A DNA stretch of 64,000 bases from Fragilaria crotonensis. Its lineage: Eukaryota > Bacillariophyta > Fragilariophyceae > Fragilariales > Fragilariaceae. Below the pieces are notes generated by a model that saw only the letters and a list, made by a program, of their open reading frames with translations, was not told the DNA's origin and made no database searches. Each line of letters opens with the position of its first letter. Position 1 is the stretch's first letter. Positions 3,944 to 28,888 of this stretch are shown one piece after another. The stretch is taken from assembly GCA_022925895.1 (NCBI GenBank), contig JAKSYS010000013.1, forward strand, positions 186,001-250,000, read 5' to 3'. Position numbers and translations under genes: made by a program.

Positions 3944-4016
3944 TCAGGAAGACCTTTTGCTGCAACGGCCTTCTGTAGCCAATGACGAATCTTGAATCAC
4001 CAAAAGGTCTTCCTGA
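3944..4016. repeat. Inverted repeat with 16-bp arms
   Basis: Arm TCAGGAAGACCTTTTG at 3944-3959 is perfectly complementary to CAAAAGGTCTTCCTGA at 4001-4016, with a 41-base loop. It sits at the 5' side of transposase copy 1, and the inner arm overlaps the open frame leading into that gene. It could be a rearranged end of the element. Confidence 0.7.
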
Positions 4017-4654
4017 TGAGCACGGGAAGGCAATCAACTTGCCGCTGCAATACCATGGTCCGCAACTCCAGTTTTTGGGTGCTGTTTATCGCGTTGCATC
4101 CGTATGCGAGTCAGCCATCCTAGTGAATATCGCTATGACGTCACAAGTTTTGTACTGACTCTACAGAATTTGAACGTGATGTGGATTCAGAGTGAAACAA
4201 GCCATAGTCCTTGCATAGTACTTCTAGTATACATTACCTGTAGTACACATTACAGTACACTTGCTTGCATCAATATACTCTATATCTTGTAAAGTACCAG
4301 GTACTCCAGTACAATGTAGGTCTACATGGAGTTTGGATCTACGAGATGCATGCCAGATGCGAGATGCGACGAGTATCTTCAACGAATTCAACGTCGTACG
4401 CATACTGTAAAAGCGAACTACAAACTACGTCAGACATTAGCGTACAAGTACTATTAGCCCTGGAATGTGCGTATGTAGAGAATTTTTCACAAGAGGATCT
4501 TTTTTCACTTCAACGCTAATCTACTAGTAGGAGCTACATAAGTACGAGTACCCGCCAGTACATCGTAGTACTAGGCAAGCTACGTACGTACTCGGAGTAC
4601 ACCAAACACCAATTCCAATTTGTTTTTGCTCACATTCTTCACTTATGGATTTTA
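4017..4654. other. Spacer without recognisable gene
   Basis: No coding region can be supported. The stretch contains GTAC-rich words, especially around 4210-4320 and 4540-4600, and leads into the 119-bp tandem array. Confidence 0.5.
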
Positions 4655-21927: not shown

Positions 21928-22510
21928 TTTTTTAGCCAAGTTTGCAAATCCAAGTTTCATAACCTGTTCAACTCATTCTGTCTTGGCCACATGTTTTGGT
22001 CCAGACCTCGGACATGTTTTCATATGCCTTCGTTTTCGATGCCGAGCGACGTTGTCACCGTCGCACTCTTCATCTTACACTGATGCATGCGACACGATGA
22101 TGAATGAGGCCTGCCACTCCACTTGGCGAAGCTGCTGAAATGCGCTCCCCAGGATGGAATCTTTGACACGCCCCCTCTTGGCTGCGTCCCCAAGCAAGCC
22201 ACTCTCAAGTCCAAGGATTTCGATGAAGGTCGCCTTGACCTCTTATTTGCCATGCCTTTTCCAACTGTGGTTTGAACGGTGTTGTTGTCGGGGTCACTGA
22301 AGGGAGTGCAAAGCAAGAAGGAGCTGCAATGACCGAAAAAGTGCTGTTTCTTGAGATCTACTACATTGTTTACAGCTACGGTCACGATTTCAAGATGTCG
22401 GGACAAATCGTACACGTTGCTGTGTGGGCGTGGGACAACTATACTCGTCGCTCTGACGCAAGTCCTGCGATGTCGGACTCCGTCAAGACTAGCACATAAA
22501 TGACATGAGC

Positions 22511-24129
22511 GCACGAAGTGAAGGAACGTGGATTCCGTGTCCTCGTCAATGACCAAACTGCGAATGAGGAATGTGAATGTACTACCGGTAGTAGCATGTG
22601 AGGGCCAGGATCTAATCAACAGAAACCCATTATCCTGTAAAATGAAGAGCCAGCAATATCTAATCAAAATAATTATATGATATCACTCGTAGTTCACCAT
22701 TGTCGTGTCATTTTTAAAGCAAGAAGGTGATAACATCATAGCCATTTCCGGAGTAGTATCATCCGATCGTTGCAGTTGCAATCATGCAGCAAAAGGGTTT
22801 TGGCATGTTAGGCCGGTGCTTACAGCAAACGAAACGTCCCGCAAAACAGAACGCCGCGTCTATTCCGGGGAAAAATGGTCCTTACAGCCCCCAAAACTGC
22901 CCCCGAATGGCGCGCGCGTTTCGGGAATCCGGGTAATTTTGATCGAAACCACAGAACGCCGCGGGCAGGGATGCGCAACAATATATTGTATTACAATATA
23001 TTGCAATACTAGTGGGTACCTCCCAATTGGTCGGACTTTTGGAATACGTGTACGGTATGGGTTGTGCACGGTTGTGTGTACTGTTTGTACAGTTCAGTAC
23101 TATACGCAAGTAGTGCAGTACCCCAGAGTGGTCATACTCCGTAACAGACGCACGCACTGACGCAACTACGTATATGCAAATCTTACCGACATCACTTACG
23201 GAGTACTCCAGTATGCATGTATGACATATATCATACTCCGAGTATGAGACAGTATTCATTTGATCCAGTACCCCAGAGTGGTCATACTCCGTAACAGACG
23301 GACGCACGCACGCACACACGCACGCACGAAGTGAAGGAACGTGGATTCCGTGTCCTCGTCAATGACCAAACTGCGAATGAGGAATGTGAATGTACTACCG
23401 GTAGTAGCATGTGAGGGCCAGGATCTAATCAACAGAAACCCATTATCCTGTAAAATGAAGAGCCAGCAATATCTAATCAAAATAATTATATGATATCACT
23501 CGTAGTTCACCATTGTCGTGTCATTTTTAAAGCAAGAAGGTGATAACATCATAGCCATTTCCGGAGTAGTATCATCCGATCGTTGCAGTTGCAATCATGC
23601 AGCAAAGGGTTTTGGCATGTTAGGCCGGTGCTTACAGCAAGCGAAACGTCCCGCAAAACAGAACGCCGCGTCTATTCCGGGAAAAATGGTCCTTACAGCC
23701 CCCAAAACTGCCCCCGAATGGCGCGCGCGTTTCGGGAATCCGGGTAATTTTGATCGAAACCACAGAACGCCGCGGGCAGGATGCGCAACAATATATTGTA
23801 TTACAATATATTGCAATACTAGTGGGTACCTCCCAATTGGTCGGACTTTTGGAATACGTGTACGGTATGGGTTGTGCACGGTTGTGTGTACTGTTTGTAC
23901 AGTTCAGTACTATACGCAAGTAGTGCAGTACCCCAGAGTGGTCATACTCCGTAACAGACGACGCACTGGCGCAACTACGTATATGCAAATCTTACCGACA
24001 TCGCTACGGAGTACTCCAGTATGCATGTATGACATATATCATACTCGAGTATGAGACAGTATTCATTTGATCCAGTACCCCAGAGTGGTCATACTCCGTA
24101 ACAGACGGACGACGCACGCACACACACAC
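22511..24129. repeat. Direct tandem duplication, 813-bp period, two copies
   Basis: Copy 1 starts at 22511 and copy 2 at 23324. For example GTGGATTCCG occurs at 22528 and 23341, and TGTACTACCG at 22578 and 23391. Copies differ mainly by single-base indels. Each copy contains about 450 bp of foldback-arm sequence, the 8-bp word GCCGCGGG, and about 350 bp beginning with the hAT left terminus. The duplication therefore spans the hAT/host junction. A shorter word, CCCAGAGTGGTCATACTCCG, occurs twice in each copy. Confidence 0.92.
23769..23776. repeat. hAT target-site duplication, left
   Basis: GCCGCGGG immediately precedes the hAT terminus CAGG at 23777. The identical octamer occurs at 27690-27697, directly after the element nested at the hAT right tip. 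Eight bases is the hAT-typical duplication length. A further copy at 22958-22965 belongs to the tandem-duplicated junction. Confidence 0.8.
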
Positions 24130-24161
24130 AATTAATTTATAATATAGTAGGATATTGTTAC

Positions 24162-24341
24162 CAATATATTGTATTGGTTAGTACGACAATAACAATATAT
24201 TGTATTGTTGAATTCAACAATACCAATATATTGTATTGTTAAGCCTGACAATATCAATATATTGTATTGATACGGTTGACAATATCAATATATTGTATTG
24301 GTGAGTCGAACAATACAAATATATTGTACAATATATTGTAC
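24162..24341. repeat. Left subterminal array, six sites at exact 31-bp spacing
   Basis: The core CAATATATTG starts at 24162, 24193, 24224, 24255, 24286 and 24317 (first base variant in the last), each followed by TATTG or TACAA. Spacers differ in sequence yet every interval is 31 bp. In several units CAATAY precedes the core, making a near-perfect 21-bp palindrome. An extra core follows at 24329. Probable transposase-binding sites. Confidence 0.9.
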
Positions 24342-24450
24342 ACTACTCAAGTCTCGAGTCTCGAGTACTAGACCCTACTAGTATATTGGTAACAAGCCAC
24401 GTGAATTCTGCAGTTGTGGTGCACAATCATATCATCATATCCATTCAATC

Positions 24451-26187
24451 ATGTCAAGTTCACAAGCCCGTCGTCCAACAGTCCCGCCTGATAACAAGAA
24501 GGCGTGTCAGCTTTTCTTCGGTAAGGATCCAATTGTTGGCAAAGAACTAAATATGTGGAAGTGTAGCTGTGGAACAATTCGAAAACAAGACATCAAGGTT
24601 GGCTATACAAATCTCATGTCGCACATCCGACAGAAGCACCCGAACTACACGGAGGTGTTTAGCGTGTATCAGCAAGAAGAAAGCCAATCAGAAATGTCAA
24701 GTTTTGTTACTGGATATGGTACACCCTCCTCATCAGTGTCTGGGCAGACTACGTTGGACTACATGTTCGATACGGCATCCACTAATGTATTCAAGTGGCT
24801 CGAGTGGATTATCATGGATGAGCACGAATTGGCATTTTGCGAAAAGGATCTCACTAGGGGCAATTCAAAATTAGACCCCATCTCTGTCAAGACACTCAAG
24901 AAATACCTCTTCAAGGTGGTGAAGGCGGTAGAAAAAAAGGTATCTGCCAAGGCAATGTTTGCTACTTGTTTTGCCCTCGTATTTGATGGCTGGTCCGAAG
25001 CCTCAAGACACTTCATTGGTATGTATATTGTGTACCCTGCCAAGGAATACGATGCCGACCCTGTAATGAATTTGTTAGCCTTTGCACCTCTCCACGACGA
25101 GACAAACTTTACAGCGGAGAACCACGCAAACTTCATTGAGGCAACACTGAGATGGTACTCCTTGTCCGCAGATCGCCTTTTTTGTTTAATCGGTGACAAT
25201 TGCTCCACCAACAAGGCAACAGCAAACCGCCTTGGTGTCCCCCTTCTGGGCTGCCGAAGTCACAGGTTCAATTTATCTGTTGAGCAGTATTTGCGAAATT
25301 TCCTGGCAGCTGAATCGGAATTGGTTGGAAAGCTCATGTCAAAGTTGGCGACACTAAAACAGTCGGGCCGGTTGCGGATGATGACTGCACTGTGCCCAGT
25401 TAAGCGCAATGTTACACGATGGACAGGTGTACCGGATATGTTCCAGCGGTTCGAACGCCTCCTGCCAAATCTGAATCTTGACAGTAATGATGAATTGATG
25501 GACCTTGTTCCATCGGCAGCACAAAACAAGAATATCCGCGAACGCAAACAAGCATTGGCTGATTTTAAATCTGTGACAATTGCACTGCAGCGAATCGACA
25601 TGTCCATTAGGGAATCCGATGTTTTGTTTCGATCAATCATTGATGCCTACAAGGACTTCAACTTTGAAGGATATCTGGGAGCAAATAGCGATATCATCCA
25701 TGACAAACAATTGGAAACGGCCATTTTGAAGATACAATCGAACAAGGAGGACACCCTTACCGATCTTGAGAAAGGGGCCGTGGAGCCATTATTGCGTCCT
25801 ACTTTGATGTCACAGGATGCTGACAACATAGGAGGGGGAAGCGCTGCTGGCGAACATAACGATGCTCAACTGTCGTTTGCTGAGCGAGCGCTCAAGCGAC
25901 AACGTGTGCAAGACAAGACTGAAGGCAGCAAGTATGTCAACACGAGGTTTTTGCTTCCAACTTCGTGTGTGGTTGAGAGACTCTTCTCCCAGGCGAAACG
26001 AGTATTTAGTCCTCACAGGCGCAGGTTGAATACAAAGACGCTAGAGGCCCTGCTTTTTCTCAATCAAAACCGAGAGCTATGGAATTTGTCTACAGTTGCA
26101 TCGGTTGTGAATGAAAGGGACGCGGCAGAGTCGGATGACGAGCAGGATGATGAAGCCGAGGACAACCAGGAGGATCAGTTTTGGTAA
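24451..26187 (+). CDS. hAT transposase, BED finger and C-terminal dimerisation domain, intact
   Basis: A 578-residue frame with no disruption. Residues about 13-62 hold a BED-type zinc finger: MWKCSCGTI with two Cys, then LMSHIRQKHP with two His. The RNase-H-like core includes VFDGWSEASRHF near residue 177 (first Asp), LIGDNCSTNKA near 246 (second Asp) and a CRSHRFNL segment shortly after. The hAT C-terminal dimerisation region is clear near 503-548: SCVVERLFSQAKRVFS, with the conserved Glu, then RRRLNTKTLEALLFLNQNR. The tail is acidic. The protein would bind the terminal and subterminal repeats and excise the element. It is the only gene in the element and lies in the direction left to right. 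Integrity suggests recent or present activity. Confidence 0.93.
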   Translation: MSSSQARRPTVPPDNKKACQLFFGKDPIVGKELNMWKCSCGTIRKQDIKVGYTNLMSHIRQKHPNYTEVFSVYQQEESQSEMSSFVTGYGTPSSSVSGQTTLDYMFDTASTNVFKWLEWIIMDEHELAFCEKDLTRGNSKLDPISVKTLKKYLFKVVKAVEKKVSAKAMFATCFALVFDGWSEASRHFIGMYIVYPAKEYDADPVMNLLAFAPLHDETNFTAENHANFIEATLRWYSLSADRLFCLIGDNCSTNKATANRLGVPLLGCRSHRFNLSVEQYLRNFLAAESELVGKLMSKLATLKQSGRLRMMTALCPVKRNVTRWTGVPDMFQRFERLLPNLNLDSNDELMDLVPSAAQNKNIRERKQALADFKSVTIALQRIDMSIRESDVLFRSIIDAYKDFNFEGYLGANSDIIHDKQLETAILKIQSNKEDTLTDLEKGAVEPLLRPTLMSQDADNIGGGSAAGEHNDAQLSFAERALKRQRVQDKTEGSKYVNTRFLLPTSCVVERLFSQAKRVFSPHRRRLNTKTLEALLFLNQNRELWNLSTVASVVNERDAAESDDEQDDEAEDNQEDQFW

Positions 26188-26545
26188 CGCAGTCAGATGT
26201 TGTAAGCCGTATCCTACATTCTATATTATAGTAATCCACCATTACATTTAACTCCGAGATAATTATACATATACAGTTGACGATTGATTAACAATAGAGG
26301 AGGCGAGTAAAAAGCTGAGGTGCCGTCAACTTAGTCCGAATTGTATGCCTCAGAAGTCGTCGGAGCCCCTCCGAGGTTAATACGCTACTTGTAGTACTGC
26401 AAGCTGCGAGTACGATTCATGTTGCAATCCACTGTAGTAGTACGATGTACGTAGAACGTAGAATGTGTGGCACACTAAGCATAGTACAGTACTACAGTAG
26501 TAATAAACACGATGTCACATAGACAACATATGTATATATGTATTG
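26188..26545. other. hAT 3' region before the right array
   Basis: Non-coding. Contains GTAC-rich words near 26390-26510. The transposase polyadenylation signal should lie here but none is certain. Confidence 0.4.
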
Positions 26546-26750
26546 CAATATATTGCAATATATTGTGGACAATACAATACAATATATTGTATTGTTGGAT
26601 CAAAATATTGCAATATATTGTATTGTTCGTGAGGAATATTGCAATATATTGTATTGGCGTTTATGGATATTGCAATATATTGTATTGCTGGCAACGAATA
26701 TTGCAATATATTGTATTGCTGGGTACGGATATTGCCATATATTGTATTGT
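26546..26750. repeat. Right subterminal array, six sites at exact 31-bp spacing
   Basis: Cores CAATATATTG start at 26580, 26611, 26642, 26673, 26704 and 26735 (last is CCATATATTG), each followed by TATTG. Intervals are exactly 31 bp although spacers differ. Two extra cores at 26546 and 26556 precede the phased set. Most units are preceded by ATATTG rather than CAATAY, unlike the left array, so the two arrays are related but not simple inverted copies. Confidence 0.9.
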
Positions 26751-27057
26751 AAAATCACGAACCAACAATACAATAACAATACTATTGTGCGCATCCCTGG
26801 AGGTTCCGGAATTTCGGCTCTTTTACCTATATAAGTGTCTACTACTGGCTACGGATACTAATTCTACAACTTCGTTCGTCACGCCGGACAAATATTCCAC
26901 GTTCCATCACTTCAAATGTCCGGATCATTAGGTACATCAATCTCATGACGTGACAAATTTTGAGCTGCAACTAAAGAACTTGAGATTAGACTATGCGACA
27001 ACGGAATCGACGTTTTATGAAAATCCTACTTAAGGATATTCGACATTTGAAGTGTCG

Positions 27058-27131
27058 GCAGCCGTTGTCTCAAGAGCCAATGGCTCAAGAGCCATTGGCT
27101 CAAGAGCCGTTGTCTCAAGAGCCAACGGCTG
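27058..27131. repeat. CAAGAGCC repeat cluster A
   Basis: Four to five near-tandem copies of a 15-bp unit containing CTCAAGAGCC followed by ATTGG, GTTGT or AACGG variants. Each unit has GGCTC and GAGCC half-sites able to pair. Confidence 0.8.
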
Positions 27132-27348
27132 AACAACAGCCCCCGGCGAAGTCAAACTCAAGAACACACGTTTTGTGTGTGTCATAGAGCTCGTCCTCAA
27201 AAGTGCTCGCACTTTATGTCATACCACTAGGAGACGTAACGCATACGCATACCATCGACCTTAGATGACCTGTCATTTTTTTCCGTTCCCCGTGTGGCGA
27301 GTTCTCATTTAAAGAAAACACGTTCCTCGACTAGTTGGACGAGGTAAA

Positions 27349-27440
27349 TTGGCTCTTGAGCCACTGGCTCTTGAGCCACTGGCTTAAGCCAATGGCTCAA
27401 GAGCCAGTGGCTCAAGAGCCAATGGCTCAAGAGCCAACGT
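27349..27440. repeat. GGCTCTTGAGCC hairpin cluster B
   Basis: Two GGCTCTTGAGCCACT units are followed by the 10-bp palindrome GGCTTAAGCC and then by GGCTCAAGAGCCAGT-type units in the opposite orientation. The two arms are about 28 nt and essentially complementary, so this segment can form a ~70-nt hairpin. It pairs with cluster A as well. Confidence 0.85.
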
Positions 27441-27697
27441 CTTTTTGAATATCCCTACATAGTACTAGTTCATCCAAGACATTGAATCGATGTCGTACTT
27501 GTCATAACAAACGAAGTTAAACAACAGTTCCAAAATAAAGCACGGTTTTAATTATAGTGTATCAACAGAAGATATTCTATCATTTTGGAAACGTGGAATT
27601 ATTTAGATGTTTGTCGAACAAATTTCTGGTAGATAATCTGCGTAAAAGGTACGAGACACATAAAAGAGCCGAAATTCCGGAACCTCCTGGCCGCGGG

Positions 27698-28888
27698 CGT
27701 TCTGTGTGAAAGCCGGGTTCGCACGAAACGCAACAACCGAGTTTGTGTATGAAGTGCTACGTAATTAGAACTCGGACTAAATGGGACCAGACATGGGACG
27801 GTGTGGTACTACAGTATGCTGTGCCAATGGAGTACAATGCGAGTTGCGGTGCGCGGGCAGGCGGCTATTCTTGTCTTCGGAACTCATCTGATTGTCACCG
27901 ATAACCGCATCCGATAGATAAGCTCGTCGTTTGATCCGAGACGGCGAATCGTAGCATCCGAACGAAACGAGCGCCTGCCTTTCTTTCACGAGCCGCGCGG
28001 CATGTCTGTCGAGTGCTTCTTGCGGTTTTTTGGCCCATTTGCTCATGGCGGCAAATTTGTTCGACGAACGAAGTGACAAGCGACAAACGAGACGACTGAT
28101 ACACATGATACCTTTAGTACATTTTTAACGCAACTACATTCAACGCCTGATTTCTTTTACACTTATTCATGTCAGTATAGTATACATAAAATGCTCTCCG
28201 ATTCTGCGGTTTTGTGGTTATTTCTAGGGAGTACGCCTGTAAGGACCATATTTCACGTTTTCACAGAACAGAACGGGACGTCCGTTCTGCCGAAAACGTT
28301 TCGTTCACTGCAAGCACCGGCCTTATTACTGGCGAGAGTACCAGCACAGCCTCCATGCACAAGTGCACAGTACCGGTACTCACCATCGACTTTCAAGGGG
28401 AAACTTGGGAGTTTCAAACTTCGATACTTCGACGTGCATTTTTTTGTATGGACACCATGCTGAAGAACAAAAATCGAACCTAAAATTAATTGGTTATGCG
28501 CCCTTGGAAACTTGGAAACTTCGATCGAAATATTTTTGTATGGACACGGCCTGAGCATATGTAATTGCAGGACAGGTACTCGAGTACAGTACTGCAGCAC
28601 TGCAGCTCGCCTCTCTACTGTATATATATTCATTTATGAATGCACATCAAAGTAATGTTCTGCCCTGGGAATATCCTTTTTACTGTGCTTTGTTGTACTT
28701 CAGTACCAGGTATTAAGAGTACGTATCGCCTGTCGAGCTACAGTGTCGAGAATCCTGTGATTGATATCATCCACAGATCGCAGTTCGCATCTTCTCACGT
28801 TCGCACCTGATGTCGACGATCACAAATCACAACTTGTAACTTGCAACACGCAACGCAGCTGTGAAGTTGGAATAAGGAAGTGCTCGAT
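27698..28888. other. Right arm of foldback-like element and spacer
   Basis: Contains the inverted matches to the left arm described for 21793-28547. An open frame of 109 residues on the minus strand (28106-27777) has no recognised motif and lies in repetitive DNA, so it is not called as a gene. Direct repeats of the arm end occur near 28393-28466 and 28503-28547. Confidence 0.5.

Follow-up and report, generated by a model that had tools for sequence, protein, structure and literature searches.

The two ends of a hAT transposable element in the genome of Fragilaria crotonensis each carry an array of palindromic cores repeated at a step of exactly 31 bp, and the same step recurs among relatives of the element elsewhere in that genome. 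The element lies in a stretch of 64,000 nucleotides (assembly GCA_022925895.1, contig JAKSYS010000013.1, positions 186,001 to 250,000), referred to here as the window, whose numbering is used for the coordinates below. Judged from sequence comparison, the arrays are probably the parts of this hAT family that the transposase recognizes, with the fixed 31-bp step supporting the docking of a transposase oligomer, a reading that we favour with moderate confidence.

In the window copy, the left array (24162..24326, forward strand) consists of the core CAATATATTG starting at 24162, 24193, 24224, 24255 and 24286, followed at 24317 by AAATATATTG, which differs by one mismatch. The right array (26580..26744, forward strand) likewise has exact cores at 26580, 26611, 26642, 26673 and 26704 and a final core with one mismatch, CCATATATTG, at 26735, the end of which lies 55 bp (24 + 31, by subtraction) from the right tip. 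All ten steps in the two arrays measure 31 bp, in agreement with a preliminary description of this DNA, although the six cores that it counted at each end are five exact cores and one mismatched. Further cores fall out of register or beyond the interval 24162-26750 (23789, 23804, 24329, 26546, 26556 and 26601, the last with one mismatch); these include a core 12 bp inward of the left array (24329-24338, forward strand) and two inner right cores 10 bp apart (26546..26565, forward strand). As the core is AT-rich and self-complementary, such rows might be suspected to be a chance or low-complexity product of AT-rich DNA. However, 23 cores with at most one mismatch were found in the window, against 2.4 expected and a maximum of 5 in 100 shuffles, and the 10 observed 31-bp steps compare with a maximum of 4 in 20,000 trials of random core placement in both ends (same numbers) and a maximum of 1 in 5,000 Markov shuffles of the ends. 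With shuffles and reversed-pattern controls yielding few or none, this explanation is scarcely credible, and a chance origin of the spacing was rejected on the shuffle and random-placement controls.

To place the window copy within its family, the genome (62.1 Mb, 881 contigs) was searched for the core and tip patterns. Its 61 matches to the chlorophyll-binding family indicate a photosynthetic eukaryote; one of these proteins was most similar to LHCI-11 of entry 9vfj, followed by VCPI-1 and fucoxanthin-chlorophyll proteins, among others. CAATATATTGTATTG was found 430 times, and the family tips, CAGGGATGCGCA at the left and TGCGCATCCCTG at the right, 41 and 42 times, respectively, at up to one mismatch, whilst the reversed-pattern controls for core and tips all gave 0. 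Fifty-three loci were extracted, of which 30 could be delimited (L040 and L041 by the right end only), and the window copy was added for some comparisons; the other 23 (L011, L013-L017, L019-L021, L043-L048, L050-L052, L054, L055, L057, L060 and L061) were left out of the interval counts. Flanks are shared between L034 and L022, between L037 and L033 and between L053 and L049, the pairs for which flanks were compared, and the first of each pair was dropped as a same-site duplicate. Subfamilies were defined by shared 12-mers and layout. Subfamily A unites the window copy with two close copies, L009 and L010 (2694 and 2700 bp; target-site duplications (TSDs) ACACAGAT and ATTGTGAT). Subfamily B contains L025, L030, L038, L040, L041, L056 and L059 (474-558 bp where whole), and subfamily C contains L022, L023, L027, L029, L031, L032, L034, L035, L039 and L042 (about 598 bp plus insertions). 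Subfamily D, with the tip CAGGGCTGC, comprises L024, L026, L028, L033 and L037, of which L024 (298 bp, one array, no TSD) is probably an internal fragment of a longer copy. The small or single groups are E (L012), F (L018), G (L036), H (L049 and L053) and I (L058). The protein search listed no transposase match at the loci of B, C, D, G, H and I.

Across 28 copies, with the window included and the three same-site duplicates removed, 200 of the 222 distances of 20-45 bp between consecutive cores are exactly 31 bp, and 26 of the 28 copies hold at least one 31-bp step. The remaining distances (20, 21, 24-27, 29, 30, 32, 34 and 39 bp) each occur one to five times. Irregular site spacing in relatives, which by the preliminary description would have refuted its reading, was rejected because the relatives keep 31 bp. 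Genome-wide, the pair TTGTATTG-N16-CAATATAT, which corresponds to the 31-bp step, occurs 352 times, compared with 41 occurrences for the eight shorter spacings (N8-15) and 9 for the three longer ones (N17-19), some units being read on both strands and so counted twice. Judged by eye, many of these 41 and 9 pairs look like a 10/14-bp cluster at the array edge.

In the main subfamilies, the right arrays also keep a regular position relative to the right tip. Right arrays lie at 24 + 31n bp from it in subfamily A (L009 and L010, with the window at 55), in 6 of 7 copies of B, in all five of D and in I. Within C, 6 of 10 copies fit fully; L022 and L034 read 23, the terminal G being missing, and in L032 insertions leave the 230 bp next to the right tip free of cores. 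At the left end, the first core of the array is at 53 in A, E, F and most C copies and at 54 in most B copies; D has an irregular first step, after which the first regular core lies at 85-87, compared with 84-85 for the second core elsewhere.

Each repeat unit consists of the palindromic core CAATA|TATTG, then TATTG, and then 16 bases to the next core. Most units carry a further copy of the pentamer, in either orientation, before that core, leaving about 10 bp of free spacer. The 16-base stretch takes three forms: 10 nucleotides, CAATA and 1 nucleotide; 11 nucleotides with CAATA directly on the core; or 10-11 nucleotides followed by TATTG. In C and E, two or three of these layouts occur within a single array and the step is still 31 bp. 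The arrays at both ends run in the same direction, and the tips are inverted. In each of the five subfamilies compared, mean unit identity between the ends, over all pairs, is higher for the direct orientation than for the inverted one (0.51 vs 0.31 in A, 0.80 vs 0.47 in B, 0.62 vs 0.48 in C, 0.82 vs 0.27 in D and 0.49 vs 0.32 in F), with part of the direct excess accounted for by the fixed TATTG on one side of every unit; C repeats even the order of layouts.

The proposed mode of recognition draws on Hermes, for which the consulted sections of PMC10368747 describe two BED fingers binding a quasi-palindromic subterminal pair cooperatively, severe impairment of cleavage when that pair is shifted by 1 bp relative to the tip, and a ring-shaped octamer in which three dimers give fingers to the left end. 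By analogy, the N-terminal BED fingers of transposase dimers would bind the CAATA/TATTG half-sites, each core being taken by a pair of fingers. If spaced at a constant 31 bp and aligned with the right cleavage site, the cores would allow an oligomer to dock several BED fingers together, the step presenting the same geometry repeatedly. The identity of the binder, selection on the spacing beyond descent, and three helical turns as the cause of the distance are points that we infer. At 10.5 bp per turn of B-DNA, three turns amount to 31.5 bp, from which five steps of 31 bp drift by about 2.5 bp. Because the outer left cores are spaced at 15/16, 10 and 14 bp rather than 31, the idea of sites on the same face is limited to the inner arrays. 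A more specific form of this proposal is a molecular ruler, in which selection holds the putative BED-finger sites three turns apart and in register with right cleavage, so that loading occurs on one face. Since the arrays share one direction whereas the tips are inverted, left and right ends would take different poses in the complex, and this could provide left/right discrimination; we regard this version as possible but tentative.

The position of the left array, which stops about 110 bp upstream of the transposase start codon, could alternatively suggest a role in control, with rows of AT-rich palindromes upstream of the gene bound by the transposase or a host factor to regulate transcription or exclude nucleosomes, and the period fitting that protein. 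However, a like array follows the gene at the right end, and most of the short copies that lack a transposase match retain both arrays, a pattern that points to a cis role in movement. A role in control is therefore improbable.

The arrays are most likely derived from 31-bp tandem repeats that later diverged, because their spacers are related beyond chance, the units of the B right array are near-identical and unit number differs between copies by whole 31-bp units. Over all arrays tabulated, spacers differ by 5.1 mismatches of 10, against 7.4 in shuffled sequence, and the relationship is visible even in the window copy (left array 5.3 vs 7.3, p = 0.001; right array 5.9 vs 7.4, p = 0.002). The preliminary description was right that the spacers differ and that distance is conserved more than spacer sequence, which holds across subfamilies; unrelated spacers were rejected, and its argument against simple tandem amplification does not survive these comparisons. 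Under recognition by an oligomer, arrays would gain and lose whole 31-bp units by tandem duplication or deletion and spacer sequence would drift, whilst core sequence and core-to-core distance would be retained in lineages that still move. The same history could be read as descent only, with the period inherited from a founding tandem duplication, the cores kept because they are bound and the distance having no function of its own. The related spacers, the near-identical B units and the whole-unit differences all agree with descent, as does an indel test that is not significant under strict counting. Yet the three layouts, mixed within arrays of C and E, all total 31 bp, where descent would lead one to expect 30- and 32-bp units alongside, and the right-tip register persists across five subfamilies whose spacers differ. 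A flanking half-site displaced by 1 bp while core-to-core distance stays constant is not easily accounted for by descent alone, and the mixed layouts that all total 31 are the main reason why selection on distance is favoured. Descent as the whole explanation seems to us unlikely, though a more serious contender than a role in control.

The indel test compares decay within copies of B and C, in which 8 indels of lengths other than 31 bp stand against 66 substitutions, with 49 tabulated units across subfamilies, for which a minimum spanning tree requires about 119 substitutions and no length change. Subfamily D was excluded, its left array being badly aligned (L024 has no left array). With all 8 indels counted, p was 0.0004, 0.002, 0.007 and 0.017 for 0, 1, 2 and 3 subfamily-level length changes, respectively.

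Several observations weigh against recognition through a fixed step. The 49 units are consensus sequences or single copies (several are single) and were picked for their 31-bp length. Four of the 8 indels represent AT slippage within the core and would be removed by selection acting on the core alone, and three of the other four come from one copy, L039. Recounts with 3-5 indels, 0-3 exceptions and either 66 substitutions or an assumed 45 gave p from 0.002 to 0.37. The test thus leans towards constraint but is fragile and no proof, with p ranging from 0.0004 to 0.37 by counting rule. In subfamily D, the first step is 27 bp at both ends and one step is 37 bp. Register is tight at the right end and looser at the left, and even the right end shows exceptions: only the outer four right cores of L039 (C) are in register, the inner part slipping; the right array of L059 (B) drifts; that of F lies at 26, 2 bp out of register; and E, G and H have one in-register right core per copy, with their other cores off register. 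The N-terminal zf-BED match of the transposase (18.4 bits, E = 0.0023) falls under the Pfam cut-off of 20.6. Because the register of E, G and H depends on single cores, our confidence in recognition by a docked oligomer is slightly reduced, though still moderate. Overall, these comparisons make selection on the spacing likely but unproven.

The family is assigned to the hAT superfamily, as the preliminary description had proposed, by its tips, its 8-bp TSDs and the Dimer_Tnp_hAT match of its transposase. Both tips are present in 31 loci, or 28 once the three same-site duplicates are removed, and of these 19 are flanked by perfect 8-bp TSDs, 2 by TSDs with one mismatch (L035 and L049) and 7 by none (L024, L032, L036 with 2 mismatches, L040, L042 with one base out of step, L047 and L060). 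L022 was counted as perfect after its right boundary was shifted by one base, the last G being absent, and some of the seven loci lacking a TSD are probably wrongly delimited. Among the 21 insertions with TSDs, position 2 is T in 18 and position 7 is A in 17, with both in 14, matching the target pattern nTnnnnAn; nnnTAnnn occurs in 2 of 21. The pattern nTnnnnAn is used to divide Ac from Buster, and by target preference the family would be an Ac-type hAT. It is also the target pattern given for Hermes in the consulted sections of PMC10368747.

The transposase is encoded by a 578-aa open reading frame (24451..26187, forward strand) that is open in the window copy, whilst the protein match at L009 and L010 is in several pieces. 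Its C-terminal region matches the Pfam dimerization domain Dimer_Tnp_hAT (E = 3.3e-6, 27.2 bits, cut-off 21.4), in addition to the sub-threshold zf-BED match. The BED-like finger spans residues 23 to 64 or thereabouts and has Cys-x-Cys (C38, C40), the usual BED form being Cys-x2-Cys. Candidate motifs picked by eye are FDGWS (D179), GDNCS (D249), CRSH (C268..H271) and VVERLFS (E509), in which D179, D249 and E509 may be the catalytic D, D and E of an RNase H-like domain and C268..H271 its CxxH. A phmmer search of the transposase against solved structures listed no hAT at E up to 10, and a single-sequence fold had a mean predicted local distance difference test score of 34 and was not used. No relatives of the protein were found in the viral-collection contigs.

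The borders of the window element are at 23777 and 26799 (forward strand), not at 24162 and 26750 as first described, the left tip having been overlooked behind a 334-bp insertion. The element begins with CAGGATGCGCAACAATA and ends with TATTGTGCGCATCCCTG, its inverted tips reading CAGGG...CCCTG. The left terminal inverted repeat (23777..23793, forward strand) is 1 G shorter than the CAGGGATGCGCAACAATA of its relatives, and the right one, TATTGTGCGCATCCCTG, occupies 26783..26799 (forward strand). The nested insertion (23819..24152, minus strand) parts the left tip from the left array; on its own strand it reads 5'-TC...CTAG-3', it lies between A and T, and no target duplication was found at its site. 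We take TC and CTRR ends, an A-T insertion point and an absent target duplication to be Helitron hallmarks, all of which this insert displays. It lies beyond the outer left cores CAATATATTG located by the core scan at 23789 and 23804 (span 23789..23813, forward strand) and cuts a third into 23814-23818 (CAATA) and 24153-24157 (TATTG). In L009 and L010, where the left end is unsplit, cores follow at 14, 29, 39 and 53 and then in steps of 31, and the interrupted core of the window copy is the one at +39.

A tandem duplication of about 810 bp (about 22503-23315 and 23316-24128; pieces 96-100% identical) has copied the left tip of the hAT element together with most of the Helitron-like insert, producing an extra left-tip copy at 22966..22983 (forward strand). 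No 8-bp TSD is visible around the window copy, whose left and right flanks differ. These flanks (22940-22965 and 26796-27720) resemble parts of a larger inverted-repeat element: 26796-26825 recurs inverted at 27661-27690, and the DNA beyond resembles the inverted left flank (CACAGAACGCC...). Within this region, 15-bp tandem repeats with the palindrome-rich unit AGCCAATGGCTCAAG form two opposed blocks (27060-27131 and 27348-27442).

Small Helitron-like elements (TC...CTAG, no duplication) recur in hAT cores or core-like sites in the window, L019, L040, L023, L032 and L022/L034, where they split CAATA|TATTG or CAA|TATATTG. The Helitron-like terminus TTATAATATAGTAGGA occurs 258 times genome-wide and is followed in 13 of these by TATATTG (n = 7) or TATTG (n = 6). 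Such elements may prefer the palindromic A/T centres of hAT arrays as targets, although inheritance could account for some copies.

More distant hATs in this genome, L014 and L021 (same TSD, CCGGTT motif) and L016, showed no comparable array, with a best 60-bp self-match at any lag of 0.43-0.55, compared with 0.83-0.85 at lag 31 in the L009 reference. The L021 right end has a lag-31 self-match of 0.52, reached in 0 of 300 shuffles at that lag and 18 of 300 over all lags; its sister L014 gave 18 of 300 at lag 31. For the L016 right end, the value is 0.55 at lag 30 (0 of 300 shuffles, and 4 of 300 over all lags). L015, whose ends are not delimited, holds a 30-bp repeat of 2.8 copies with CTGCAG (3959-4043), and L017 a 26-bp repeat. 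In L011, whose protein is 75% identical, the stretch taken contains no cores. The strict 31-bp lock is a trait of the window family, and the distant hATs show weak signs of a looser three-turn habit. Separately, seven viral-collection contigs (L062-L068) each hold a single exact CAATATATTG pair at 31 bp, without an array, and several of the pairs are followed by TATTT or TGTTT. They resemble NrdR boxes, in which two palindromes lie about three turns from each other; by eye, without a family search, no nrd gene was recognized in the neighbouring reading frames, and a literature look-up for NrdR was empty.

The use of many subterminal repeats by hAT transposases is still an open question, and Hermes, with irregular repeats, is the only system with an end-complex structure in the parts of the literature covered. 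The present family offers a natural series of equal-step arrays with differing step numbers and many small non-autonomous copies, in which the contributions of phase, number and total length to assembly could be separated. If the distance is selected, it would provide a simple sequence signature for oligomeric loading. Among titles and abstract openings of the open-access literature, no hAT with equal-step subterminal sites was found, which is weak evidence of novelty.

In its tips, target pattern and protein domain, the family belongs with the Hermes-type hATs, and other known elements offer partial parallels. In the consulted sections of PMC7642927, the foldback (FB) elements of Drosophila have 27-31-bp repeat blocks flanking a middle region, but they are P element-related rather than hAT, their blocks are opposed within long inverted ends and a role as transposase sites is not given. 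In Herves, a hAT of Anopheles gambiae, the transposase binds a short motif repeated subterminally at both ends and the left end has three imperfect tandem repeats; these are 100 bp long, however, and 31-bp phased palindromes are not described in the parts of PMC3143072 covered. Tol2, Ac and Tag1 need about 100-200 bp of end sequence, the Ac transposase binds several scattered repeats cooperatively and Tol2 has the palindrome AAGTACTT after its left tip, whereas the consulted sections of PMC10368747 describe a fixed-step array for none of the three. By the same sections, Hermes of Musca domestica shares with the window family a hAT transposase with a BED finger (a BED-like one in the window family), the nTnnnnAn target, subterminal repeats, a quasi-palindromic pair next to the tip, asymmetric ends and, for the window family presumably, the importance of position relative to the tip. 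It differs in its motif, AAGT/AAGC, which is arranged asymmetrically, with 17 copies in one end and 14 in the other, and no equal-step array is described there (PMC10368747). Palindromic arrays of equal step, in register with the right tip, are the feature that sets this family apart from Hermes-type hATs.

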